From Planctomycetia bacterium (GTDB taxonomy: Bacteria > Planctomycetota > GCA-002687715): a DNA stretch of 64,000 nt. Both the position numbers and the translations under genes were made by a program. Below, piece by piece: positions 6,508 to 33,428 of the stretch. The first letter of the stretch is position 1. Each line of letters begins with the position of its first letter. The notes below the pieces were generated by a model. The model worked only from the letters and a program-made list of their open reading frames with translations. It was not told the DNA's origin and searched no databases. The DNA is taken from positions 1 through 64,000 of the forward strand of contig SXUL01000037.1 in NCBI GenBank assembly GCA_005790545.1. The letters are read 5' to 3'.

Positions 6508-7998
6508 TCACTCGTCCTCGTTGCCCGTTCCTTGTTGTTCTGGCAACTCCTCGCGAGCACGCACCACCATGCTGGGCGAACAGCGCTTGGCTCTCTGGAG
6601 GGCCAGATTGACGGCCGCGAACAAGGTGTCGCGATCCTCGCCGTCCTCTGGATAGACGGCCACACCAGCACTGACCGTCACTTTGCCGCGCAGCCGCGGC
6701 AGCAGCTTCGCGAAGTGCGTGCGCTCCACAAGGGTCCGCACGCGTTGAACAGGGTCGCTGATCTCCTGAACGCCAGCCTTCTGCAGCCTGGGCTTGCGCG
6801 CGTCCGGAAGGAGAATGGCAAATTCGTCGCCGCCCCAGCGTGTCACCACGTCGACATCGCGAAAGCCGCGCCGGATCACATCGGCCACGGCTCGAATCAC
6901 GCCGTCACCGGTGGCGTACCCGTTCAAGTCATTGATTGTCTTGAATTTGTCCACATCCATCAGCACAAGAGTGAGGTGCCGCCCGTGGCGCTCGGCACGC
7001 TTCAGCTCCACTGCAAACTGGCGGTCGAAGTAGCGGCGATTGAACAAGCCTGTGAGCGGGTCGACGACCGCCATGTTGTTGAGCTCGTCGAAACGGTGGG
7101 AATTCCGGAGACAGGCGACAAGATGCGAAGCCAACGCGTCGAGTTCCGTCAGGATGCTGGAAGGGAATGTTCCTGAACGGGGTTCAGCCAGCAGAATCAG
7201 GCCGTGGAGCGTGCGCTGCTCATCCGTCGGAATGCTGAGTGGCACGAGGACAACTTCGGCTGAGGATCGGCACGGCTCAAGCGGGACCAGCGTCGTGTCC
7301 GCCAACGCAGAACGTCCATTGTGCAGGGCGGCGAACACGGCGCCGCTTCCTGGTGCCCGGGCGAGCAGGGATTCCTCCACGCCCTCGGTTTGCATGAGTT
7401 CGATGTTCTTCTCGGGGGCCAGGGCCAGCCACAGCGCACCAGCTCGCGCGTCCGCCATGTCTCCAAACATCTCGAGTGCCAGCTCGAGCAACTTCTCGCG
7501 GTCGGATTCAGCGAGGGAGAGACCGCGGGCGTAGTCGACAACCCGTTGCCAATTGTGATGCCCCCCGCTGGGCGCGCTGGGTTCCGGAGCAACAGCATCT
7601 GTCCGCGGTGCGGGCTGCGCCGCGTGCAACTGTGGAAGATCGCGGCATCCAAGGGCATCACGCAATGCTGAGTAGAGGTAAGGCTCCCGCAGTGCGACAT
7701 CGATGAACGGTGTTGCTGCCCCGAGATCCGTACTCAGGGCGGCTGTCAGCACGACGAAGGGGCGATCCATGAGAGCTCGTGCCTTGAGCAGGAAGTCCAC
7801 GGCAGAATCGCGGAGAGCCGCGTGGCGAATCAGCAGAGCCGCATCGGGGCGCCGGGCGAGCTCCGCCATGACTTCGTAGGGCCGGGCAGTGGCCAGAACC
7901 CGCAGACCTTCTTCCCTCAACAGATCCACATAGTGGGCGAGGTTTCCATCCCCGTCGGTGAGGACGATCAGTACTGCGGCCGGCTGTCGTTGGGTCAC
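6508..7998 (-). CDS. GAF-GGDEF diguanylate cyclase
   Basis: Predicted cytoplasmic enzyme making cyclic di-GMP from GTP, 496 residues. Residues ~1-115 resemble a receiver fold without a clear phospho-acceptor Asp. Residues ~150-315 form a GAF-like sensory domain, and ~325-480 a GGDEF domain that begins with DPLTGLFNRRYFD. The active-site GGDEF is intact (389-393), and an RxxD inhibitory site (RDVD) sits five residues before it, so product inhibition is expected. I chose the GTG start because it overlaps the stop of the upstream kinase-like gene (GTGA), indicating translational coupling. A longer N-terminal extension inside the upstream gene is unlikely. Confidence 0.88.
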   Translation of the reverse strand: MTQRQPAAVLIVLTDGDGNLAHYVDLLREEGLRVLATARPYEVMAELARRPDAALLIRHAALRDSAVDFLLKARALMDRPFVVLTAALSTDLGAATPFIDVALREPYLYSALRDALGCRDLPQLHAAQPAPRTDAVAPEPSAPSGGHHNWQRVVDYARGLSLAESDREKLLELALEMFGDMADARAGALWLALAPEKNIELMQTEGVEESLLARAPGSGAVFAALHNGRSALADTTLVPLEPCRSSAEVVLVPLSIPTDEQRTLHGLILLAEPRSGTFPSSILTELDALASHLVACLRNSHRFDELNNMAVVDPLTGLFNRRYFDRQFAVELKRAERHGRHLTLVLMDVDKFKTINDLNGYATGDGVIRAVADVIRRGFRDVDVVTRWGGDEFAILLPDARKPRLQKAGVQEISDPVQRVRTLVERTHFAKLLPRLRGKVTVSAGVAVYPEDGEDRDTLFAAVNLALQRAKRCSPSMVVRAREELPEQQGTGNEDE

Positions 7999-9053
7999 GT
8001 GGCCGACTCCGCCTCGTGTTCGATCATGCGCAGGGAGAGCTGCATGAGAGAGCCACCGCCTCGGCGCGTGATGGCCGCGGCACCTCCAGCGGATTCTGCG
8101 CAGTGCACAAGGAGCGCCCACCCCAGCGCAAGCGGCATGCGCACGCTCGCAAGGAGTTCAGTGAAGGTCCCGCGCTGTGCGGCGAGGTGTCTGAGGACTT
8201 CACCTGATTCTTCCAGGGAGACGGAGGCGCCTTGGGGAGTCCGAGCCAATTCGACGATCAGTTCGCGATCGTCACGGCGTCCTTCGAGAAGTGCGTGGAG
8301 CAGGAGTCTCAGAGCGAGGGCGAGCGCCTCTGCGGGTGCACACACCTGCAAGCTCTGATCACGAACCACGATTTTCAACCGGAATCCCTCGCGCTCCAGA
8401 GCGACGCGCGCGTTCTGCACGGCCAGAACCAGATCCGTGCCCTGCTGCTGTGCATCCAATGGGCGCGCGAGCATGGATAGCGCTTGCAACATGAGTTCGA
8501 GCTTGGCGAGTTGGGCTTGCGCGCTCCGCACAGCTCGCGTCTTCAGTTCGGGTGGTGTCGCACCTTCGAGAATTTGCAGCCACCCGGCAGCGCCGCCCAG
8601 TGGGTTGTTGAACCCGTGGCAGAGCGTGCGAAGGAGTGCGTGCGACGAAACCTCGGGCAAGATGCTGCCGTGTGCGCTCGAGGTCTTGTCCTCCATGGGG
8701 GGCGTTGTCCGCCGCGGCGTCGATTGAAGTGCGGCGCGCAGCGCCGCACGCACGTCCGCCAGAAAATAGGGCACTGCGAAGCGGGCCTTGGGTGCAAAGG
8801 TCCCGAGATCCCGTTCCTTCCCGATCACGAAGGTCGGGTGTGTATCCAGCAGGCCAGGTGCGACCTCGTCAGACCACAGATCCTCGTGGATCAGAATGAC
8901 AACAGGTTCCGGGAGTTCCGGGAGTTGCTTTGCGCTGCGGGAGAGCGGGCCCGCGGTGCTCAGGACGTGGATTTCCCCGGCACTGGGTTCGAGAAACGAA
9001 ACCAGCGCATCAAGATCGGGACCCGATTCGTGCAGAATGAGGATGCTGGACAT
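7995..9053 (-). CDS. Histidine-kinase-like protein with degenerate ATPase domain
   Basis: A 352-residue soluble protein. Residues 1-115 look like a receiver-type alpha/beta domain that lacks the acidic pocket. Residues ~137-200 contain a kinase H-box (LCHGFNNPLGG, His146). The C-terminal region still carries a G2-like segment (LALGWALLVHCAESAGG), but I cannot find the N-box Asn or the G1 DxGxG motif. ATP binding may therefore be lost. The ATG at 9053 starts 'MSSILILHES'. It is translationally coupled to the diguanylate cyclase downstream, so it may act as that enzyme's partner or scaffold. The transmitter family is recognised; kinase activity is doubtful. Confidence 0.7.
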   Translation of the reverse strand: MSSILILHESGPDLDALVSFLEPSAGEIHVLSTAGPLSRSAKQLPELPEPVVILIHEDLWSDEVAPGLLDTHPTFVIGKERDLGTFAPKARFAVPYFLADVRAALRAALQSTPRRTTPPMEDKTSSAHGSILPEVSSHALLRTLCHGFNNPLGGAAGWLQILEGATPPELKTRAVRSAQAQLAKLELMLQALSMLARPLDAQQQGTDLVLAVQNARVALEREGFRLKIVVRDQSLQVCAPAEALALALRLLLHALLEGRRDDRELIVELARTPQGASVSLEESGEVLRHLAAQRGTFTELLASVRMPLALGWALLVHCAESAGGAAAITRRGGGSLMQLSLRMIEHEAESAT

Positions 9054-9147
9054 GCTGCCCCCGCGGAAGAATCGTCGGGGACTCCGGCCATAAGTACCAA
9101 CCGCGCCAAGCGTTCGGGTAGTTCTCTGGCCGCGGGAGTTTACTCCC

Positions 9148-9166
9148 ACTGGTTCGCCCACTGCAA
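9148..9166 (+). promoter_or_regulatory. Possible weak sigma-54 promoter before the glycosyltransferase genes
   Basis: ACTGGTTCGCCCACTGCAA has GG and GC separated by exactly ten bases (GG 9151-9152, GC 9163-9164) and a TGCA -12 element. The -24 box is TGGTTC rather than TGGCAC. It lies about 150 bases before the start at 9314, in the 260-base divergent spacer between the kinase-like gene and the glycosyltransferase genes. Nothing else stands out in that spacer. Confidence 0.25.
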
Positions 9167-12293: not shown

Positions 12294-13676
12294 ATGCTGT
12301 CCGATGCGCTGCTGCTGGAACTGAGGAGCCTGCTGCCGCATTGCGTTTCCACGGACGCAGCCACGCTCCTGGCCGCATCCTTGGACGCTTCTGACGTTCA
12401 GGGTGCATGCTCTGCGGTGGTGCGCGTTGCGTCGGAAGAGGATGTGGTCCGCTTGTTGCGCTGGGCGGAAGAGCGACGTGTTGCCATCGTGCCGCGCGGC
12501 GCGGCGACCTCCGCGACAGGCGCCGCGCGTCCCATGCCGGGGAGCGTGGCGCTCGACCTCCGAGGTCTCAATCGCATTCTCGACCTCGATGCGCGGGACA
12601 TGGTGGCGGTTGTCGAGCCGGGAGTGATCACGGCCACACTGCAACGCGCTGCCGAGGCTGAGGGATTGCTGTACCCACCCGATCCCGCTTCTGCTGCTGA
12701 ATGCACGCTGGGTGGCAACGTCGCGACGTGCGCGGGAGGGTTGCGAGCTGTCAAGTATGGCGTGACGCGTGACTACGTTCTCGGCTTGCGCTGCGTGCTG
12801 CCCGGTGGACGCATTCTCGAGTGCGGGGGGCGCAATCTGAAGGACGTGACCGGCTACGACCTGACGCGATTGTTGACTGGCTCTGAAGGGACACTGGCCG
12901 TCTTTACGCGCATCGTGCTGAAGCTCGTCCCACTGCCGCCGGCGCACGGGACATTGCTTTGTTCGTTTGCGGATGAGGATGGCGCTTTCACCGCGGCGGA
13001 CGCGATTCTCGCTGCGGGACTCTGGCCGCGCGCGCTCGAGAGCATGGATGAACCGGCGGCTCGACTTGCCGCGGCAGGCGCGGGGCTCGAGCTTCTTCCC
13101 GAAACACGTTCACAATTGCTGGTGGAGTTGGATGGCGAGGCGACGAGTGTGCGTGAGGCGATGGAGCGTTTGCGTTTGCTGCTTGGAAAGACCTGTCTCG
13201 ACTGCCGGGATGTGTCGAGCGGTGAAGCGTTTGCCGCTGTGTGGCAGGGTCGCCGCGGCATCAGCCGCGCTGCGCGTGCACTCGCACCCGCCAAGCATTC
13301 AGAGGACATCGGTGTGCCCCGCGGAAAACTGGCCCTCGTGGTGCGACAGTTGAAGGAACTCGGTCGGGCTCACGGCATCCCGATGCTCATTTACGGGCAT
13401 GCCGGGGATGCCAACTTGCACTGCAACTTCCTGCACGATCCCGGTGGGGAAGGCGCAGATCGACGGCTCGATGCCTGCGTGCGTGGAGCCTGGGAGCTCG
13501 TCTTGAGCCACGGCGGTACACTCACCGGCGAGCACGGAGTCGGGCTGCGCAAGCGGGATGAACTGCCGCGCATCCTCGGCGCCGAGCGCATGAGGCTCAT
13601 GCACGCCATCAAACAGGCATTTGATCCAGGCAACATCATGAATCCCGGCAAGGTGCTGCGCGAGAATCAGGCATGA
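12294..13676 (+). CDS. FAD-binding oxidoreductase (glycolate/lactate dehydrogenase GlcD type)
   Basis: A 460-residue flavoenzyme of the PCMH/vanillyl-alcohol-oxidase family. The FAD-binding domain spans residues ~45-225 (PRGAATSATGAA, then GGNVATCAGGLRAVKYG). The C-terminal cap ends with the diagnostic GEHGVGLRKRDELP and FDPGNIMNPGKVL motifs. It most likely oxidises glycolate, D-lactate or another 2-hydroxyacid. A separate iron-sulphur GlcF partner is not in the window. It follows femAB by 30 bases and overlaps the response regulator gene by ATGA. Confidence 0.87.
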   Translation: MLSDALLLELRSLLPHCVSTDAATLLAASLDASDVQGACSAVVRVASEEDVVRLLRWAEERRVAIVPRGAATSATGAARPMPGSVALDLRGLNRILDLDARDMVAVVEPGVITATLQRAAEAEGLLYPPDPASAAECTLGGNVATCAGGLRAVKYGVTRDYVLGLRCVLPGGRILECGGRNLKDVTGYDLTRLLTGSEGTLAVFTRIVLKLVPLPPAHGTLLCSFADEDGAFTAADAILAAGLWPRALESMDEPAARLAAAGAGLELLPETRSQLLVELDGEATSVREAMERLRLLLGKTCLDCRDVSSGEAFAAVWQGRRGISRAARALAPAKHSEDIGVPRGKLALVVRQLKELGRAHGIPMLIYGHAGDANLHCNFLHDPGGEGADRRLDACVRGAWELVLSHGGTLTGEHGVGLRKRDELPRILGAERMRLMHAIKQAFDPGNIMNPGKVLRENQA

Positions 13677-15028
13677 AGGTCCTCATTGCCGATGACGAAC
13701 CGAGTCTCACGGAACTTCTCGTCGAGGACTTGCGTGAGCGCGGGCACGAAGTCGAATCCGTGGCGCGCGGTGATCTCGCTCTGCAGAGGATCGGAGCAGG
13801 TTCCTTCGATATTCTCATCACGGACATCAACATGCCGGGGATGAGCGGTGACCAACTGCTGGCAGAGGTGAGGCGTGTACGTCCTGACATCGCCGTGGTG
13901 GTGATCACGGGTTATGGCACGGTGCAGTCGGCTGTTGCGGCCATGCAAGCTGGCGCATCCGACTACATCCTGAAGCCGTTCGTCAATGAACAACTCGCGC
14001 TCATTCTGGACCGGCTCCAGCACGTCCGGGACCTCGAGGCGGAGAATCGGGACCTGCGCGAACGCGTCGAGGAAGCACCCGGATTCCGGGAGATGACCGG
14101 TTCGAGCGCGGTGATGCACGCCTTGTTTCGCACTGTGCGCACCGTCGCGTCTTCCGACAGCAATATCCTTATCACGGGCGAGACAGGTACCGGCAAGGAG
14201 GTTCTGGCCCGGGCTCTGCACAAGCTTTCGCTCCGCGCCACAGGCCCGTTGGTGTCGGTTTCTTGCGCCGCCATCCCGAGCACTCTGCTGGAAGATGAGT
14301 TGTTCGGCCACGAGAAAGGGGCGTTCACGGACGCCCGTGAGAAGAAGCTCGGGCGCATTGAGCGCGCCAGCGGCGGCACGTTTTTCCTTGATGATATTGA
14401 TGACATGCCTCTCGCGACGCAAGTGAAGCTGCTGCGCGTCTTGCAGGAGCGCGAGGTCGAGCGCCTCGGCGGAAGCGGGCCAGTGAAGGTGGATATTCGT
14501 GTGGTGGCCGCCTCCAAGGTGGACCTGCGCATGATGGTGCGCGAGGGGCGTTTTCGCGAAGACCTTTTCTACCGCTTGAATGTGGTGCCACTGAGGCTGC
14601 CACCGCTGCGCGAACGGCAGGGCGATGTTCCGCTGCTGGTGCAGCATTTCATTCGCAAGTACGGGCACGGGGTGCAGTACATCGTGCCCGAGAAGTTGAT
14701 GCTGCAACTCGAGGAATACCACTGGCCTGGAAATGTGCGTGAGCTCGAGCATGCCGTGGAGCGCGCCATTGCTCTTGCCGCTGACGATCAGATTCTCCTG
14801 CGCGACCACATGCTGGAACGGGATGAAACCCATCCGCAGACGACGCCGCCGCCCACAGGTGTCGAACCACTTCTGGATTTGCTCTCACGCACCGAGAAGG
14901 AGCATCTCCAGAAGGTGCTGCGCTTGTGCGTGCAGAAATCGCAGGCAGCAGAAGTTCTCGGCATCAGCAGAAAATCTCTCTGGCATCGCATGCGCATTCA
15001 CGGAATCAGTGATCCTGAAGCTCCATGA
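13673..15028 (+). CDS. Sigma-54-dependent response regulator (NtrC family)
   Basis: A 451-residue enhancer-binding activator. The receiver domain is complete (acidic pair Asp7/Asp8, phospho-acceptor Asp51 in LITDINMPG). The AAA+ domain has Walker A GETGTGKE at 169-176 and a Walker-B-like FFLDDIDDMP. The sigma-54 contact loop reads GAFTDA near 216-221, where GAFTGA is the common form. A C-terminal Fis-type helix-turn-helix (~410-445, SQAAEVLGISRKSLWHRM) should bind DNA upstream of sigma-54 promoters. ATG 13673 overlaps the oxidase stop. A strong sigma-54 promoter with dyads lies near 29.3-29.5 kb and is a plausible, untested target. Confidence 0.9.
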   Translation: MKVLIADDEPSLTELLVEDLRERGHEVESVARGDLALQRIGAGSFDILITDINMPGMSGDQLLAEVRRVRPDIAVVVITGYGTVQSAVAAMQAGASDYILKPFVNEQLALILDRLQHVRDLEAENRDLRERVEEAPGFREMTGSSAVMHALFRTVRTVASSDSNILITGETGTGKEVLARALHKLSLRATGPLVSVSCAAIPSTLLEDELFGHEKGAFTDAREKKLGRIERASGGTFFLDDIDDMPLATQVKLLRVLQEREVERLGGSGPVKVDIRVVAASKVDLRMMVREGRFREDLFYRLNVVPLRLPPLRERQGDVPLLVQHFIRKYGHGVQYIVPEKLMLQLEEYHWPGNVRELEHAVERAIALAADDQILLRDHMLERDETHPQTTPPPTGVEPLLDLLSRTEKEHLQKVLRLCVQKSQAAEVLGISRKSLWHRMRIHGISDPEAP

Positions 15029-15768
15029 ACAGGGACGTGCTGGAGCCTCCAGTTATTTTTGTCAGCGATGTACATCTGAAACAGGGAGACGCTGAGTATC
15101 TTGCCCGGTTTATCGAGTTCCTCCGCGGTCCGTGCATGGGCGCACGACACCTCGTGATTCATGGCGACCTGTTCGAGTTCTATGTAGGGCCGCGGCAAGG
15201 TCGCGACCCATGGTGGGCCCCGCTGCATGCAGCTTTCCGCGCGCTCGCGGGGAACGGGACATCGATCACCGTTCTGCACGGCAACCGGGACTATCAGATC
15301 GAGCCGGGGTTCGCGGGCGGTGTGTTGCAGGTGCGCCCTGGCGATTGGAGTTGCCTCGCGGGTGGCAAGCGTCTGCGCATCAGCCATGGCGACGAGCTCT
15401 GCGTGGATGACTGGAGCTACCAGATCTTCGGACGTTGGCTGTTGCGTCTCGCGCCCCTCCGTTGGTTGTTGCGAACGCTGCCGTTTGGTCTCAGCTGTCA
15501 GTTGGCGGTGAGCTATCGCCGGTTCTCAAGAGCACGTTGGCGGGGACACACCCCCGGGCGCCTCGACTCCATTCTGAAGGGGGCAAAGATGCGGCTTGGG
15601 GAGGAGGACATCCTCGTCGCCGGACACATCCATCAGCTCGCGGCCACCGACCTGGATGGGCGGGGGACCACCGTGCTCTACACGACCGGTGCATGGGAGG
15701 ATGGGGCCAATCACATCCTCTGGGATGGCAGGGATTTCCGGCTTGTGATGGCTGCGTCGAGAGGCTGA
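15025..15768 (+). CDS. LpxH-like UDP-2,3-diacylglucosamine diphosphatase
   Basis: A 247-residue calcineurin-type metallophosphoesterase. The metal-binding blocks are all visible in order: VSDVHL, HGDLFEF, HGNRDY, SHGDE and AGHIHQ. This order and the ~240-residue length match LpxH, which cleaves UDP-2,3-diacylglucosamine to lipid X in lipid A synthesis at the inner membrane. Other UDP-sugar hydrolases of the same fold cannot be excluded. The start ATG overlaps the response regulator stop (ATGA), so it is cotranscribed with the regulator and the envelope genes before it. Confidence 0.78.
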   Translation: MNRDVLEPPVIFVSDVHLKQGDAEYLARFIEFLRGPCMGARHLVIHGDLFEFYVGPRQGRDPWWAPLHAAFRALAGNGTSITVLHGNRDYQIEPGFAGGVLQVRPGDWSCLAGGKRLRISHGDELCVDDWSYQIFGRWLLRLAPLRWLLRTLPFGLSCQLAVSYRRFSRARWRGHTPGRLDSILKGAKMRLGEEDILVAGHIHQLAATDLDGRGTTVLYTTGAWEDGANHILWDGRDFRLVMAASRG

Positions 15769-27060: not shown

Positions 27061-29190
27061 ATGCTCACGAGAGGTTCACGTCGCGTGAAAAACTGCACCC
27101 TTTCCGCTTTGCTCACTGGGGTCATTGCGTTGTGGATTGCGAGTCCAGCTTGGGCTCATGGTGGGGCGTACCAAGGACCCGTTCCCACGCCTTATCCCGT
27201 GCCGCCTCCCTTTCAGCCACCAACCACGCCGGGCACCAATCTGCCACCAACGCAGCCCGTTGGACCGCTGCCTCCACCAGGAACAACGCCGGGACCTGCA
27301 CCCACCACGCCCACGCCTGGTGACGGGGGAAGTTACGCCGGGCCTCGTGGCGGCGGCACTCCGGGGTACAGCGGCCCGGTTGGAGGTGGCAGTCCCGGCT
27401 ACTCCGGACCGGCTGGCGGCGGGACCATTCCAGTGGGCGCGGGCGGAACGACGCCTGTCTCTGGTGGCAGCCCAGCCCGCCCCGCACCAAGGTCGCGCGC
27501 CTCGGGTTCTGGTCCGAGCGCACCTGCAGGACGCGGATTTGGCGGCAGCACGGGAGCACGTGCTCACGCCAAAGCGAGCGAGCGTTCAGAGAGCTGGGAT
27601 TGTTGGTGGGCTCTCAACGAAGCGCGCTACCTCAACCTCAAGAACAAGGTTCGGAGCGAGCCATCCCGTTCCGGAACGGAAGATGACTTTCTTGGTGGGA
27701 CGCTCTCAGGCAGTGTTGCACGTGTGGGTGCGCTCCAGATCCGAAAGGAGATTCTTCCTTCTTTGCGCGCGGCGCTGAAGGACCCGTTCTACGACGCACG
27801 TGCCGGAGCCGTGATTGCCCTCGGCAAAGTGGCCGACAGCTCCATGCCTGATGTACTCGCGGACATCCGACTCCTGCTCGCGGACGGCAACAGGGTGGTT
27901 CAGGAGTCGGCCTGTCTGGCGTTGGGCATTCTCGGAAACAAGAACGCGCTTCGGGACCTCTCGGATGTCTACCGGGACACCCCTCGCGGGCGCCAACTGG
28001 CCGGCAAAGCCGGTGCCGAAGTCCCTGTGCGTATGCGCACTTTCGCGTCCGTCGCTGTCGGTCTCATCGGAGCTCGCGAGGGTTTTGGCCCAGGCGAATA
28101 CCATCTCGAAGATCTCGTTGCGCGCGCGACCATCAAAGCTGCAAACCACGACTTGCAGGTCGGCGCGGCCTTGGCGCTTCAGTCATCACAATTCATGAGC
28201 AGTGCCCCCGAAGTGCTCAGGGCATTCAAGAACGAGAAACTGGATCCTGCCGTGCGCGCACATGCCGGCGTGGCACTCGGAAAAATCGGCGCGAAGGCCG
28301 CGATTCCGGAACTCGTGAACGGTCTCGATGACCAGGATTCGAGCGTTGCCAACTCGTCAGCCATCAGTCTCGGTCTGTTGGCCGAGCGACGTGACCACCA
28401 TGCCATCGAGAGCTTGATTCGCTGCGCTGAGTCCGCACCAGCTCGATCCACACGCAACTTCTGCCTCATCGCACTCGGTGAAATCGGTGATCCGAAGGGC
28501 ATGGCGCTCCTCTTGGCACGGCTTGACAAGGGGCAGACTCAGGGGCTGACCTTCTCTGCTCTGGCTCTTGGCATCATGGGGAGCAAGTTCGAAGACTGCA
28601 GAGAGACCGTCGGCAGTGCTTTGTTCGGGGCTTACAGGAGGCTCAAGTCCGATCAGGAGAAGGCAGCCGTCGCCATCGGCCTTGCACTCTGCGGTCATGA
28701 GCCCGCAGGCACCATGTTGGCAGAAGATCTCGTGAAGGGGCAAGGCAACCAGGACCTCAAGGGGCACCTCTGCACCGCACTTGGTCTCCTCCATCACGCG
28801 GACAGCATCTCCGCTATTCAAGAGCTCGCCGCGCAGCGCGGCGACCAGGATCTGCGCAAACGAGCGGCCATGGCACTCGGCCTCCTCAAGGATCCGGATG
28901 CCGTGAGTGTGCTTGCCAGAGTCATCAGCGATTCATCAGCCAGCAAAGCCATCCTCGGCGCGGCAACCGTCGCCATTGGATACATCGGCGACCGGCGTGC
29001 GGTGCCGATCCTCGTTTCCATGCTGGAGAACAGGCAGGGCGATGTGCAGGATGTAACGCGCGCGTTTGCAACAGTGGCCCTTGGCATCCTCGGCGACAAA
29101 GACGACATCCCCTGCATCTCGAAGGTGCAAGAGAACTCGAACTACCTCGCCCCGACCGAAGCTCTCGCGGAACTCCTGACGATCCTCTGA
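27061..29190 (+). CDS. Secreted HEAT-repeat protein, copy 1
   Basis: A 709-residue exported protein. The signal peptide ends near residue 32 (SPAWA/HGG). A long Pro/Gly-rich low-complexity region (about 35-165) contains repeated 'GYSGPxGGG' units. A Trp-rich box follows (SWDCWWALNEARYLNLKNK). From ~225 to the end there are roughly a dozen HEAT/PBS-lyase-type helical repeats, recognisable by 'AGVALGKIGAKAAIPEL', 'IALGEIGDPKG' and 'VAIGYIGDRRAVPIL'. HEAT solenoids bind proteins; the partner is unknown. The downstream paralogue is strikingly similar, especially over the last ~170 residues. Copy 1 has a larger Pro-rich arm (PTPYPVPPPFQPP). Confidence 0.85.
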   Translation: MLTRGSRRVKNCTLSALLTGVIALWIASPAWAHGGAYQGPVPTPYPVPPPFQPPTTPGTNLPPTQPVGPLPPPGTTPGPAPTTPTPGDGGSYAGPRGGGTPGYSGPVGGGSPGYSGPAGGGTIPVGAGGTTPVSGGSPARPAPRSRASGSGPSAPAGRGFGGSTGARAHAKASERSESWDCWWALNEARYLNLKNKVRSEPSRSGTEDDFLGGTLSGSVARVGALQIRKEILPSLRAALKDPFYDARAGAVIALGKVADSSMPDVLADIRLLLADGNRVVQESACLALGILGNKNALRDLSDVYRDTPRGRQLAGKAGAEVPVRMRTFASVAVGLIGAREGFGPGEYHLEDLVARATIKAANHDLQVGAALALQSSQFMSSAPEVLRAFKNEKLDPAVRAHAGVALGKIGAKAAIPELVNGLDDQDSSVANSSAISLGLLAERRDHHAIESLIRCAESAPARSTRNFCLIALGEIGDPKGMALLLARLDKGQTQGLTFSALALGIMGSKFEDCRETVGSALFGAYRRLKSDQEKAAVAIGLALCGHEPAGTMLAEDLVKGQGNQDLKGHLCTALGLLHHADSISAIQELAAQRGDQDLRKRAAMALGLLKDPDAVSVLARVISDSSASKAILGAATVAIGYIGDRRAVPILVSMLENRQGDVQDVTRAFATVALGILGDKDDIPCISKVQENSNYLAPTEALAELLTIL

Positions 29191-29209
29191 AGCCAGCCCA
29201 GCTGGACTC

Positions 29210-29243
29210 GACGCCCGGATGCGACCCGACGCATCCAGGCGTC
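29210..29243 (+). terminator. Long hairpin after HEAT copy 1
   Basis: Arms 29210-29223 (GACGCCCGGATGCG) and 29230-29243 (CGCATCCAGGCGTC) form a 14-position stem with one C/A mismatch, followed by TTGCGTT. It is 20 bases after the stop and probably ends the first HEAT transcript, leaving copy 2 dependent on its own promoter. Confidence 0.6.
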
Positions 29244-29316
29244 TTGCGTTGAGGCGGACAAGCTCTCATTTCGCCCTGTCGGGGGGTGTGGGAGCCCTGA
29301 TCCTGAGCAACGGGGA

Positions 29317-29334
29317 TGTTCCCTCAAGGGAACA
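29317..29334 (+). promoter_or_regulatory. Dyad element 1 upstream of HEAT copy 2
   Basis: TGTTCCCTCAAGGGAACA: two perfect 8-base arms around a 2-base centre (29325.5). It lies about 187 bases before the predicted sigma-54 transcription start, a normal distance for an enhancer-binding activator. A stable RNA hairpin is an alternative, but the promoter prediction puts it upstream of the transcript. Confidence 0.5.
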
Positions 29335-29347
29335 CGTGTGCGATTTG

Positions 29348-29363
29348 GAAACAAAGTTGTTTC
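29348..29363 (+). promoter_or_regulatory. Dyad element 2 upstream of HEAT copy 2
   Basis: GAAACAAAGTTGTTTC: two 7-base arms around AG, centred at 29355.5, exactly 30 bases after the centre of dyad 1 (about three helical turns). The half-sites GGAAACA and TGTTTC resemble GGGAACA and TGTTCCC of dyad 1 but in the opposite order. This suggests repeated recognition of one TGTTYC-like half-site. Confidence 0.45.
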
Positions 29364-29486
29364 GGAGTGAGGGCCGAGAGCCAGCGGGCTTTGAGAAGCT
29401 CATTTCGCAGCACTCATTAGTCGTTGCCCGATGGCAAGTTACGAGCGTACTTTTTATTGAGCGCTCCGACCATGTTCAGTGCAGTT

Positions 29487-29503
29487 TGGCACAGACTTTG
29501 CTT
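29487..29503 (+). promoter_or_regulatory. Sigma-54 (-24/-12) promoter for HEAT copy 2
   Basis: TTGGCACAGACTTTGCTTG around this position matches the consensus TGGCAC-N5-TTGC exactly. GG is at 29488-29489 and GC at 29500-29501, with the required ten-base gap. Transcription would start near 29513, leaving a ~50-base leader with GGAGAAAG as ribosome-binding site before ATG 29564. A sigma-54 activator gene is present at 13673-15028. Confidence 0.72.
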
Positions 29504-29563
29504 GTGTCTTTTTAGCCCCCTGCGGCTGCACTCGCCTGAAACGCGGGTGTCTGGAGAAAGATC

Positions 29564-31501
29564 ATGCGCAACACGTTCTTTGCTGCGGCCTTGCTGCTGA
29601 CCTTGGGTCTGGTGGCAAACGTCGCTCTGGCCCACGGTGGCACCTATCAGGGGCCGTCCGGCGGTGGCACCCCTGGTTACACCGGCCCCATCGGTGGCGG
29701 CACCGTCGGTCCTCAACCCGGTGGCACGACTCCTCCCGGCACGGGCGGTTCGACGCCTCCCCCGGGCGGCGGTGCAACCCCGCCCCCGAGCTCCGCACCG
29801 ACTCCGCGTCCGGTGGCTCGCAACACCGGTCCTGCGGCAGGCCGCGGCTTCGGTGGTTCCACGGGCGGTCGCGCCAAGGCGAAGTCCGATGATCGCACCA
29901 GCGAATGGGATTGGTGGTGGGATCTCAATGAGGAGCGCTACCTGAACCTCAAGAACAAGGTGCGTAGCCAGGAGGCCAGCTCCGACAACAAGGACACCTT
30001 CCTCGGTGGCAGCCTCGGTGGCGGTGCCTCCAAGGTGAGCGCGAACCAGATCCGCAAAGACATTCTTCCTTCGCTGCGCCTCGCGCTGAAGGATGCTTTC
30101 TATGACGCTCGCGCCGGTGCGGTGATCGCGCTCGGCAAGGTTGGCGATAAGTCCATGCCGGAAGTGCTCGCGGATCTCCGCGGCATGCTCGCCGACAAGG
30201 ACAAGATCGTGCAGGAGGCTGCTTGCCTCGCCCTCGGCGTCCTTGGCAACAAGGAAGCTCTCGCGGATCTCTCTGATCTCGCACGCGACAGCAAGCGTGG
30301 CCAGAAGCTCGCCGGCAAGGAAGGCGCGGAAGTGCCTGTGCGCATGCGCACGTTTGCGGCGGTGGGTATCGGTCTCATCGGTGGGCGTGAAGGCTTTGCG
30401 GCTGGCGAGACCTACCTCAAGGACCTCGTCACTCTCGCGACGACCAAGTCGCCCAACCAGGACGTGCAGGTCGGACCCGCAGTGGCACTCCAGGTCGTCA
30501 AGACCCAGGATGCCGTGCCCTCCCTGATCAACATGTTCAAGGACGAGGAACTGGACAAGTGGGTGCGCGCTCACGCGGGCGTGGCTCTCGGCAAGATCGG
30601 CGCGAAGGCGGCGATTCCGGAACTCGTGAAGGGCCTTGATGACAAGGAATCGTTTGTTGCGAACTCGTCGGCCATCAGCCTCGGTCTTCTAACCGACCAG
30701 AGCGACCGCGAGACCATCAACAAGCTCATCCGTTACGCGAAGAGCGCGCCCGAGCGTTCGACGCGCAACTTCTGCATCATCGCGCTCGGCGAAATCGGCG
30801 ATCCGAAGGGCAAGGCTCTGCTTCTCGAAAACCTGCAGAAGGGCCAGATGCACGACCGCACCTTCTCCGCCATCGCGCTCGGCATCATGGGCAACAAGTT
30901 CGAAGAAGGTCGCAGCGAATCCGGCCAGGTGCTGGTGGAAACCTACAAGGCCCTCAAGGCCGATCAGGAGAAGTCAGCCGTCGCCATCGGCCTCGCACTC
31001 TGCGGTTATGAACCCGCTCGCGAAATGCTCGCGGAAGATCTCGTGAAGGGTCAGGGCAACCAGGACCTCAAGGGTCACCTCTGCACCGCCCTCGGTCTCC
31101 TCAATCACGCCGACAGCATTCCAGCCATCCAGGAACTCGCACGCCAGAAGGGTGACCAGGATCTGCGCAAGCGCGCAGCCATCGCCCTCGGCCTCCTGAA
31201 GGACCCGGATGCGGTGGATGTGCTCGAGAAGGTCATCACGGAATCGTCGGCCAGCAAAGCCATCCTCGGCGCGGCAACCGTCGCCCTCGGATACATCGGC
31301 GACCGCCGTGCGGTGCCGATCCTCGTGAGCATGGTGGAGAACAAGAAGGGTGACGTGCAAGACGTGACCCGCGCGTTTGCCACCGTGGCCCTCGGCATCC
31401 TCGGCGACAAGGACGATATTTCCTGCATCTCGAAGGTGCAGGAGAACTCGAACTACCTCGCCCAGACTGAAGCTCTCGCGGAACTCCTGACGATCCTCTG
31501 A
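29564..31501 (+). CDS. Secreted HEAT-repeat protein, copy 2 (sigma-54 controlled)
   Basis: A 645-residue exported paralogue of copy 1. The signal peptide (1-23) ends ANVALA/HGG. A shorter Gly/Pro/Thr-rich arm with 'GYTGPIGGG' follows, then the Trp box (EWDWWWDLNEERYLNLKNK) and about a dozen HEAT repeats. The codon usage is cleaner than copy 1 (almost uniform CTC, AAG, GTG, GGC), which with a strong SD (GGAG, about nine bases before ATG) suggests high expression. A near-consensus sigma-54 promoter and two dyads precede it. The C-terminal third is nearly identical to copy 1 in protein and DNA. Its role is unknown; a periplasmic or surface scaffold is one possibility. Confidence 0.87.
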   Translation: MRNTFFAAALLLTLGLVANVALAHGGTYQGPSGGGTPGYTGPIGGGTVGPQPGGTTPPGTGGSTPPPGGGATPPPSSAPTPRPVARNTGPAAGRGFGGSTGGRAKAKSDDRTSEWDWWWDLNEERYLNLKNKVRSQEASSDNKDTFLGGSLGGGASKVSANQIRKDILPSLRLALKDAFYDARAGAVIALGKVGDKSMPEVLADLRGMLADKDKIVQEAACLALGVLGNKEALADLSDLARDSKRGQKLAGKEGAEVPVRMRTFAAVGIGLIGGREGFAAGETYLKDLVTLATTKSPNQDVQVGPAVALQVVKTQDAVPSLINMFKDEELDKWVRAHAGVALGKIGAKAAIPELVKGLDDKESFVANSSAISLGLLTDQSDRETINKLIRYAKSAPERSTRNFCIIALGEIGDPKGKALLLENLQKGQMHDRTFSAIALGIMGNKFEEGRSESGQVLVETYKALKADQEKSAVAIGLALCGYEPAREMLAEDLVKGQGNQDLKGHLCTALGLLNHADSIPAIQELARQKGDQDLRKRAAIALGLLKDPDAVDVLEKVITESSASKAILGAATVALGYIGDRRAVPILVSMVENKKGDVQDVTRAFATVALGILGDKDDISCISKVQENSNYLAQTEALAELLTIL

Positions 31502-31511
31502 GGATTTCGCC

Positions 31512-32300
31512 ATGACGAATCAACGCCCGAAAGCCCATCCGCGCCTTCGGGCGTTGTTCGTTGGTGCGAGCCTGTGTCTCTTGATGTGCCGTCCCGCTCA
31601 GGCCCAGGATCCATTTGGTGCAGCCTATGGAGTCGCGTCCGGCAGTTATGTGGGCGGCGCAACGACAGTTCCGGTGCCCGTGCCGGTCGTTCCCGGAACG
31701 CTCTACGGGACGACGAGCGAACCTGGCAGCTCTGCGTCCGCGGGTTCGGCGTCGGGGACAGCGACTCCTTCGAGCAGTACAAACTCATCGTCCACGACCA
31801 GCAAGTTTGGTGCGGGAGGCCGCTCGCGCGCCAAGTCCAGCGCAGCCAGCCCTGACTGGCGCCATTGGTGGGCCAACAACTCTGAATCCTGGATCAGGAC
31901 GCGCGCTCACATTCGCGACATCAGCCTGCGTCGCACGGACAGTGCGGGCACTGAATCACTCCGGGGGTTCGATCCCATCGGTCCATCGCGCGCACGGCGG
32001 GAGATTCTCCCGCTGTTGCAACAGGCGCTGCGTTCAGACGAGCCGGCCCTGCGTGCGGCCGCAGCGGTTGCGTGCGGCCGCATCGGAGGACCTGGAGACG
32101 ACGCGCTGCGCCAGAGCATGACGACGCTTCTCGGAGATCCTCTGCTTGATGTTCAGGCTTCGACGCTCCTCGGGCTCGGATTCCAAAGACATGAGGATTC
32201 CATTGCCCTTCTCGCAGCGATTGCGACCGACAGCGGCCTCGGGCGTCAGCTCTTGCGTCAGCCGGATGGAGTCCCGACTCAACTCCGCTCAGTGGCGTGA
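31512..32300 (+). CDS. HEAT-repeat protein copy 3, 5' part before an in-frame TGA
   Basis: The first 262 codons of a third, divergent paralogue. It has a signal peptide ending RPAQA/QDP, a Ser/Gly/Thr-rich arm and a Trp box (WRHWWANNSESWIRTR) aligned with the WWxxN box of copies 1 and 2. The opening HEAT repeats follow (REILPLLQQALRSDEPALRAAAAVACGRIG). The frame stops at TGA 32298-32300 inside the segment matching 'RMRTFAAVGIGLIGG' of copy 2. The same frame continues directly into the next entry, so the pair represents one broken or misread gene. It lies 10 bases after copy 2 and is probably cotranscribed with it. Confidence 0.75.
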   Translation: MTNQRPKAHPRLRALFVGASLCLLMCRPAQAQDPFGAAYGVASGSYVGGATTVPVPVPVVPGTLYGTTSEPGSSASAGSASGTATPSSSTNSSSTTSKFGAGGRSRAKSSAASPDWRHWWANNSESWIRTRAHIRDISLRRTDSAGTESLRGFDPIGPSRARREILPLLQQALRSDEPALRAAAAVACGRIGGPGDDALRQSMTTLLGDPLLDVQASTLLGLGFQRHEDSIALLAAIATDSGLGRQLLRQPDGVPTQLRSVA

Positions 32301-32306
32301 ACATCT

Positions 32307-33428
32307 TTGGCCATGGTTGTCGCCAGGACGAGATCCCCACTCGCCGACGGTGTCGCTGCGCTGCTCATGCGCATCGCTCTTGCGGATCTTCCATCCATGG
32401 ATCTGCGCGGTTCTGCTGTGCTGGCCACCGGGCTGGTCGGAGATGACGCCATCGTTCCACAACTGGTCGCGCTCGTGCGCGATGAAACGGCCGAGAGATC
32501 CCTGCGTGCCAACGCCTGCACGGCGCTCGCCAAGCTCGGTGGTGCGAGCGCCGTTCCAGTGCTTGCAGAAATCACACTCTCAGGGAGCGCACTCCTCGCG
32601 CCAGCGGCTGCAGCGGGCCTCGGGATGGCCTGCGCTCCAGGCGACGAGTCGGCGTTGCGGACTCTGACGAACGCGGCCTCGAGTTCCGATCGGGCCATGC
32701 TGAGCGCCGCCATTGCGGCATTGGGAGAGATCAAGAGCCCGCGGAGCGTGACGGCGCTGGAGTCCATCGTTCAGAAGGGGGACAACTTTGCCTCTGCCCA
32801 GGCCGCCATTTCCCTCGCGCTCGCACTGGGAACGACGGCCAACGGAAGACAACTCGAGCTCCTGGCTGCAGCGCTGAAGACTTGTGGGAATCAGGAGGAT
32901 CGCCCAGCCTTTACGCTGGCACTCGCCATCGTGCATCACCCCGATGCCGCTGCGGAAATCGAATCTGTGTTGACCCGGAAAAATCCCGACCGGGAGTTGG
33001 CATGGCACCACTGCACCGCAGCCGGGGTCCTTGGAGACCGTCGCCTCGTGGAGGCTCTCTCACCGTGGGTGCGTCAGTCGCGGGACCCCGCTCTGAGACA
33101 GAAGGCATCCCAAGCCCTGGCGGCATTGCACAGTGAACCGTTGCTGCCGGATCTGCTGGACGTTCTCAGCGAATCCAAGGCCAATCAGACGTCTCTCTTC
33201 GCGACCCTTGGCGCCATCGCCACCATCGGTGATGCGCGCGCCATTGCGCCTCTGACCAAACTGCTGGGCAAGGACGCCGGTCTTCCAGAACTGTCCCGTG
33301 CGGCCGTTTTCTCGGCATTCGGCCTTCTCGCCGACAAGGATTCCGAGCCGCTGCTGCAGCGCTGGCGGCATGGCGTTCAGCCCGCGGCGGCGGGTGCTGT
33401 CGTCAGGAGTTTGCTCAGGGTTCACTGA
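32307..33428 (+). CDS. HEAT-repeat protein copy 3, 3' part after the in-frame TGA
   Basis: In the same frame as the preceding entry, beginning two codons after the TGA. The first usable codons are TTG 32307 and ATG 32313. It consists only of HEAT-type repeats, such as LRANACTALAKLGGASAVPVLAEI and GAIATIGDARAIAPLTKLLG. It aligns position by position with the middle and C-terminal repeats of copies 1 and 2, without a signal peptide of its own. If translated alone it would stay cytoplasmic. The intact reading frame argues that the stop is recent or a base-calling error. The end overlaps the convergent gene at 33415 by 14 bases. Confidence 0.75.
   Translation: MAMVVARTRSPLADGVAALLMRIALADLPSMDLRGSAVLATGLVGDDAIVPQLVALVRDETAERSLRANACTALAKLGGASAVPVLAEITLSGSALLAPAAAAGLGMACAPGDESALRTLTNAASSSDRAMLSAAIAALGEIKSPRSVTALESIVQKGDNFASAQAAISLALALGTTANGRQLELLAAALKTCGNQEDRPAFTLALAIVHHPDAAAEIESVLTRKNPDRELAWHHCTAAGVLGDRRLVEALSPWVRQSRDPALRQKASQALAALHSEPLLPDLLDVLSESKANQTSLFATLGAIATIGDARAIAPLTKLLGKDAGLPELSRAAVFSAFGLLADKDSEPLLQRWRHGVQPAAAGAVVRSLLRVH

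Follow-up and report, generated by a model that had tools for sequence, protein, structure and literature searches.

A conserved tandem palindrome upstream of a predicted sigma-54 promoter in Planctomycetota and its candidate NtrC-type activator

In a planctomycete genome, the gap in front of the second of three gene copies for exported HEAT-repeat proteins very probably contains a genuine and ancient genetic switch with a nameable controller, because the same arrangement precedes related genes in many distant planctomycetes. In our preferred reading, which we give a probability of approximately 80%, the gap would be an enhancer-controlled sigma-54 promoter worked, through tandem sites, by an NtrC-type regulator encoded 14 kb away. 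An earlier note on this DNA had regarded the gap as a likely controlled promoter of HEAT copy 2, and the conserved box and tandem, together with the presence of rpoN, support this proposal. Table 1 lists the features in the window, i.e., the whole 64-kb stretch of DNA that was analyzed.

Table 1. Features of the window that bear on the predicted switch
Feature	Position	Strand	Remarks
Weak histidine-kinase candidate	7995..9161	-	HisKA below the cut-off; in the same conserved block; candidate partner only
Best candidate activator, NtrC-type response regulator	13673..15028	+	Receiver, sigma-54 AAA+ domain with GAFTDA, Fis-type HTH
Arg439 codon, recognition helix SLWHRM	14987..14989	+	Lys in relatives with GTTACC sites
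HEAT copy 1	27061..29190	+	Lineage-specific, fast-evolving duplicate; neither tandem nor sigma-54 box in front
Predicted intergenic control region of HEAT copy 2	29191..29563	+	373 bases; from sequence and the footprint of two congeners
Hairpin after copy 1, GACGCCcGGATGCG/CGCATCCaGGCGTC	29210..29243	+	Strong; 20 bases past copy 1; no T-run
Predicted activator site 1, palindrome GTTCCC-TCAA-GGGAAC	29318..29333		From conservation; most relatives have GTTACC-N4-GGTAAC
Predicted activator site 2, TGTGCG-ATTT-GGAAAC	29337..29352		Starts 19 bp after site 1; register of the tandem of relatives
Second dyad of the earlier note, GAAACAA-AG-TTGTTTC	29348..29363		Center 29355.5; right arm not conserved
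Sigma-54 -24/-12 box TGGCAC-AGACT-TTGC, TGGCACAGACTTTGC	29487..29501	+	Exact TGGCAC-N5-TTGC match
Predicted transcription start	29513	+	12 bp past the -12 box; from the box position
GGAG, likely ribosome-binding site of copy 2	29553..29556	+	From sequence
HEAT copy 2, 645 aa	29564..31501	+	HEAT repeats; starts like a signal peptide, followed by an invariant HGG and a Gly/Pro-rich stretch
HEAT copy 3, two frames	31512..33428 (31512-32300, 32307-33428)	+	In-frame TGA between the frames

Conservation of the predicted promoter region

The gap of the two congeners, whose HEAT orthologue is 86-87% identical, keeps both the -24/-12 box and the 35-bp element (29318-29352) that ends 134 bp before the -24 box. 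The congener alignment conserves GTTNCC-N4-GGNAAC, a further GGNAACA half-site 13 bases on (29347-29353 in the window), and a box with TTGCTT, and the gap outside the tandem core and the box is mostly poorly alignable. The earlier note had named the lack of a conserved promoter upstream of orthologues as grounds for abandoning its proposal; the promoter was conserved there. With its GG and GC at -24/-12 spacing, an rpoN gene in the genome, and this conservation, the box has the properties of a putative sigma-54-dependent promoter. Similarly, the palindromes are conserved and lie approximately 100-200 bp upstream, as predicted for an NtrC-type enhancer.

In distant orthologues, the element consists of two 16-bp palindromes, GTTACC-N4-GGTAAC, arranged in tandem at 19 bp start to start; an example is GTTACC-GGGG-GGAAAC-GTT-GTTTCC-TGCC-GGTAAC in genome G004. 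The palindromes of two genomes of family f3, G007 and G011, are of the GTTCCC type and, by eye, are approximately 18 bp apart. When up to 3 mismatches in 20 positions were allowed, the tandem matched once in its own genome, at this gap, while the control matched nowhere. A search at the order level (12 genomes) found it at 8 places, 6 of which were upstream of HEAT genes, and its reversed control at 1 place. Among 294 genomes of the phylum, with up to 2 mismatches, there were 22 places versus 3 for the control.

In a follow-up test, the motif was fixed first and then applied to 28 usable HEAT loci that had been found by a protein search alone. Outside family f41, the tandem reached a shuffle p of 0.02 or less in 10 of 21 loci and the box a p of 0.03 or less in 8 of 21, values that are too small because the loci are partly from related genomes and not independent; several separate families matched nonetheless. 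Neither the tandem nor the box was found in the 7 HEAT loci of f41. HEAT loci without clear sites also occur in some genomes that carry the activator, such as G171.

Candidate activator

The best candidate for the controller has the receiver, AAA+, and HTH domains of an NtrC-type regulator (Table 1). A one-to-one orthologue (51-66% identical) was present in the other members of the order searched, as a cut fragment only in G007, and where contigs allow, its position within a conserved gene block is unchanged. Since the gene lies 14 kb from the gap and the whole block is conserved, place alone is weak evidence. The gene arrangement shared across the order spans 145-41657 and runs from hsp70 via glycosyltransferases, the activator, cmk, S1, and NAD synthase to the HEAT gene. 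A calcineurin-like phosphoesterase gene (15025-15768), LpxH-like by eye, overlaps the end of the activator gene and is its neighbor across the order.

Three other lines are stronger, the first being adjacency in genome G271. There, the tandem, a -24/-12 box, and a prepilin gene come immediately after the gene of the activator orthologue, and a second tandem and box precede a gene with a weak PilX match. In a tree constructed without the HTH, the activator orthologues form a clade (98% SH-aLRT). The recognition helix contains a Trp in each of the 28 clade members, and the LW helix was found in no other activator of the window's own genome. Residue 439 is Lys in 25 of the 28 and Arg in the other 3 (the own genome, G009, and G011); the genomes with Arg439 have GTTCC half-sites, whereas those with Lys439 mostly have GTTAC. 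This covariation of helix and site is suggestive of a link between the activator and the tandem, and only suggestive because it reflects at most two independent changes. Genome G054 of family f41 has HEAT genes and neither the activator orthologue nor the sites. The sites are also absent from the other f41 genomes, G054 being the one examined for the orthologue.

The contact loop for sigma-54 reads GAFTDA, not GAFTGA, and almost all members of the clade have Asp instead of Gly at its fifth position. FlgR, the only activator of this type in Campylobacter and other Epsilonproteobacteria, has Asp at the same loop position (PMC3162934), and a Desulfovibrio activator with GAFTDA has been listed together with its target operons (PMC4641369). 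The occurrence of this loop in reported working activators suggests that it is compatible with sigma-54 activation.

The most serious alternative is that the sigma-54 promoter and tandem enhancer are real, but that another NtrC-type activator of the genome acts on them and the protein at 13673-15028 is a mere neighbor. The genome offers 13 good sigma-54 activators, the surrounding block is conserved as a unit, and the loop is GAFTDA; these points lend the alternative some weight. However, we consider it unlikely, given the adjacency of orthologue, tandem, and box in G271, the covariation of helix and site, the joint absence of orthologue and sites in G054, and the restriction of the LW helix to this activator within the genome. 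The earlier note had guessed at the same regulator, and fixed-place orthology, the G271 adjacency, and the covariation argue that the guess was probably correct.

Histidine-kinase-like genes adjoin the activator orthologue in G171, G051, and G023 (loci L126, L127, and L128), and it is possible that they encode its partners.

Palindromes and promoter box

Palindromes such as those of the tandem are also bound by other regulator families. The tandem may then belong to an unrelated regulator, such as a dimeric repressor, and lie upstream of a sigma-54 promoter by coincidence. Within 500 bases of several tandem matches in the phylum there is no sigma-54 box, which would suit this explanation; these tandems may also be chance matches or repeats, and the matches in genome G036 are repeats. 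We regard an unrelated regulator as improbable, since the tandem occurs at a typical enhancer distance from the box in successive families, is distant from the start, which is the usual region of repressor action, and adjoins the activator gene in G271.

The earlier note had described two dyads 30 bases apart and took them to be activator sites. Both are present: the first reads in full TGTTCCC-TCAA-GGGAACA (29317-29334, center 29325.5), and the centers are exactly 30 bases apart, at -187 and -157 relative to the predicted start. This is all that can be said for the pair as the two activator sites, a reading that we find more doubtful still. The right arm of the second dyad, GTTTC, is absent even from the congeners, the spacing in relatives is fixed at 19 bp, and the half-sites of the two dyads have opposite orientations (TGTTCC..GGAACA versus GAAACA..TGTTTC). 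The 30-bp pair was therefore rejected as a functional unit on the basis of the congener footprint. Thus, the dyads and their centers stand as described, whereas neither the second dyad nor its spacing is conserved, and the predicted second site is the overlapping one at 29337-29352. In the own genome, the left half of this site is degenerate or lost and the right half, GGAAAC, is kept at 29347-29352. Its register matches the full tandem in G004, G005, G010, and G006, and its right half is conserved in the congeners.

The hairpin that the earlier note had called terminator-like is strong and lies where described, 20 bases past copy 1, but it lacks a T-run and did not score as an intrinsic terminator, and the reading as such a terminator was rejected. 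No known RNA family was found in the gap.

The TGGCAC-N5-TTGC promoter recognized in the earlier note is borne out as an exact match; the end given there, 29503, includes the following TT. The box begins 77 bases ahead of the start codon of copy 2. The window contains no other exact match, and sites with at most one mismatch (n=5) are at chance level. Genome-wide (2.87 Mb, 91% complete), there are 14 copies of the exact box and 8 of its reversed control, so the pattern by itself is weak evidence. The other 13 exact matches overlap long open frames, and only the copy at 29487-29501 is in an ordinary promoter position. This planctomycete MAG has one rpoN gene (one Sigma54_DBD match, 175.7 bits). 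The 14-to-8 ratio might prompt the view that the box is a chance match and that copy 2 is transcribed from a different, sigma-70-type promoter, but this is highly improbable because the box and tandem are conserved together and no sigma-70-like site was found in the gap region.

HEAT-repeat gene copies

Beyond the congeners, HEAT orthologues are 42-59% identical in other members of the order, and the value falls to approximately 30-40% in many families elsewhere in the phylum. In the congeners, a single close HEAT gene faces that for NAD synthase, whereas copy 1 has come to lie between the two in the own genome. Copies 1 and 2 are sisters in the tree (92% SH-aLRT), with a branch approximately 10 times longer for copy 1. 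A search in front of copy 1 did not reveal a separate sigma-54 promoter. From these sequences, it appears that the switch was retained by copy 2, not by copy 1, after a lineage-specific duplication.

Copies 2 and 3 are probably in one operon, with a gap of 10 bases between them. The TGA of copy 3 (32298-32300) is a Cys codon in congener G002; a pseudogene or a sequencing error could account for it, recoding being a less likely cause.

Once the signal peptide is removed, the predicted mature HEAT proteins would have an invariant His-Gly-Gly at their very N-terminus (29564-29650 and orthologues). An N-terminal His is able to bind copper in other protein families. No second invariant His was seen in the HEAT orthologues.

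Discussion

The boxes, with their conservation, order, and spacing, the rpoN gene, and the domains of the activator are read from the DNA itself. From these we infer binding, phosphorylation, looping, a start site, and the identity of the acting regulator as follows. Sigma-54 RNA polymerase would wait in a closed complex on the -24/-12 box. The phosphorylated regulator would bind the tandem 16-bp sites as two adjacent dimers, and these would assemble the AAA+ ring and contact the promoter, the -24 box of which is 134 bp beyond the sites, through DNA looping. ATP hydrolysis would then lead to the open complex and to transcription from near 29513. The promoter would drive HEAT copy 2 and probably also copy 3, the broken gene that follows after ten bases. 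These components and the distances between them are consistent with the standard sigma-54 mechanism.

Among the closest known parallels is the class of sigma-54 promoters with tandem enhancer sites for NtrC-type response regulators, such as glnA with NtrC, which shares the -24/-12 box, palindromes approximately 100-200 bp upstream, an NtrC-type activator, and a single rpoN. In contrast, the predicted switch has GTTACC-N4-GGTAAC sites, a 19-bp tandem spacing, an exported HEAT protein as its target, and a GAFTDA loop. Judged by the curated cut-offs of NCBIfam, the candidate activator is not NtrC proper (TIGR01818, 403.6 bits against 558.6), AtoC (PRK11361, 412.2 bits against 714), or a PEP-CTERM response regulator (TIGR02915, 379 bits against 502.6). 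The last of these is similar in its domain order and as a sigma-54 regulator tied to exported proteins (PMC1569441). FlgR of Campylobacter is alike as a working sigma-54 activator with Asp at the fifth GAFTGA position (PMC3162934). However, FlgR is flagellar, and the activator of the window falls far below the cut-off of an NCBIfam model.

We lean slightly towards a broader claim, taken as a whole: that these findings outline an undescribed sigma-54 regulon of Planctomycetota, in which one orthologous activator with an LWEK helix and a GAFTDA loop acts on tandem GTTACC-N4-GGTAAC sites, and which would control exported HEAT-repeat proteins across many families and, in other families, prepilin-like genes, the helix having changed in step with the site in two lineages. 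Our search of the open-access literature found no description of such a regulon in Planctomycetota and nothing relevant on the sequence of the tandem site. Within that literature, the regulon, its site, and its phylum-wide reach appear to be new.

Little is known about gene control in Planctomycetota, and the present case offers three elements that may be tested jointly, namely a candidate regulator, an exactly defined DNA site, and their target gene. It would also place exported HEAT proteins of unknown role under sigma-54. Sigma-54 has been proposed to mainly control the cell exterior (PMC3162934), and a HEAT family under its control agrees with that proposal. Moreover, the covariation may be an example from nature of joint drift between the helix of an activator and the DNA site that it reads.

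In Myxococcus, PilR and NmpR are sigma-54 regulators of type IV pili (PMC6211767). They resemble the candidate activator as NtrC-type regulators of surface structures, a likeness drawn from gene neighborhood, as orthologues of the candidate adjoin prepilin-type genes; however, the predicted target in this order is a HEAT gene rather than a pilin. Prepilin-type (N_methyl) genes adjoin the activator orthologues in G047, G271, and G070 (loci L120, L131, and L132), and the activator may thus have a broader role in construction of the cell exterior. In G070 (L084/L111), a tandem with one mismatch and an exact sigma-54 box stand ahead of a small gene, which encodes an 89-aa peptide of an unassigned kind.
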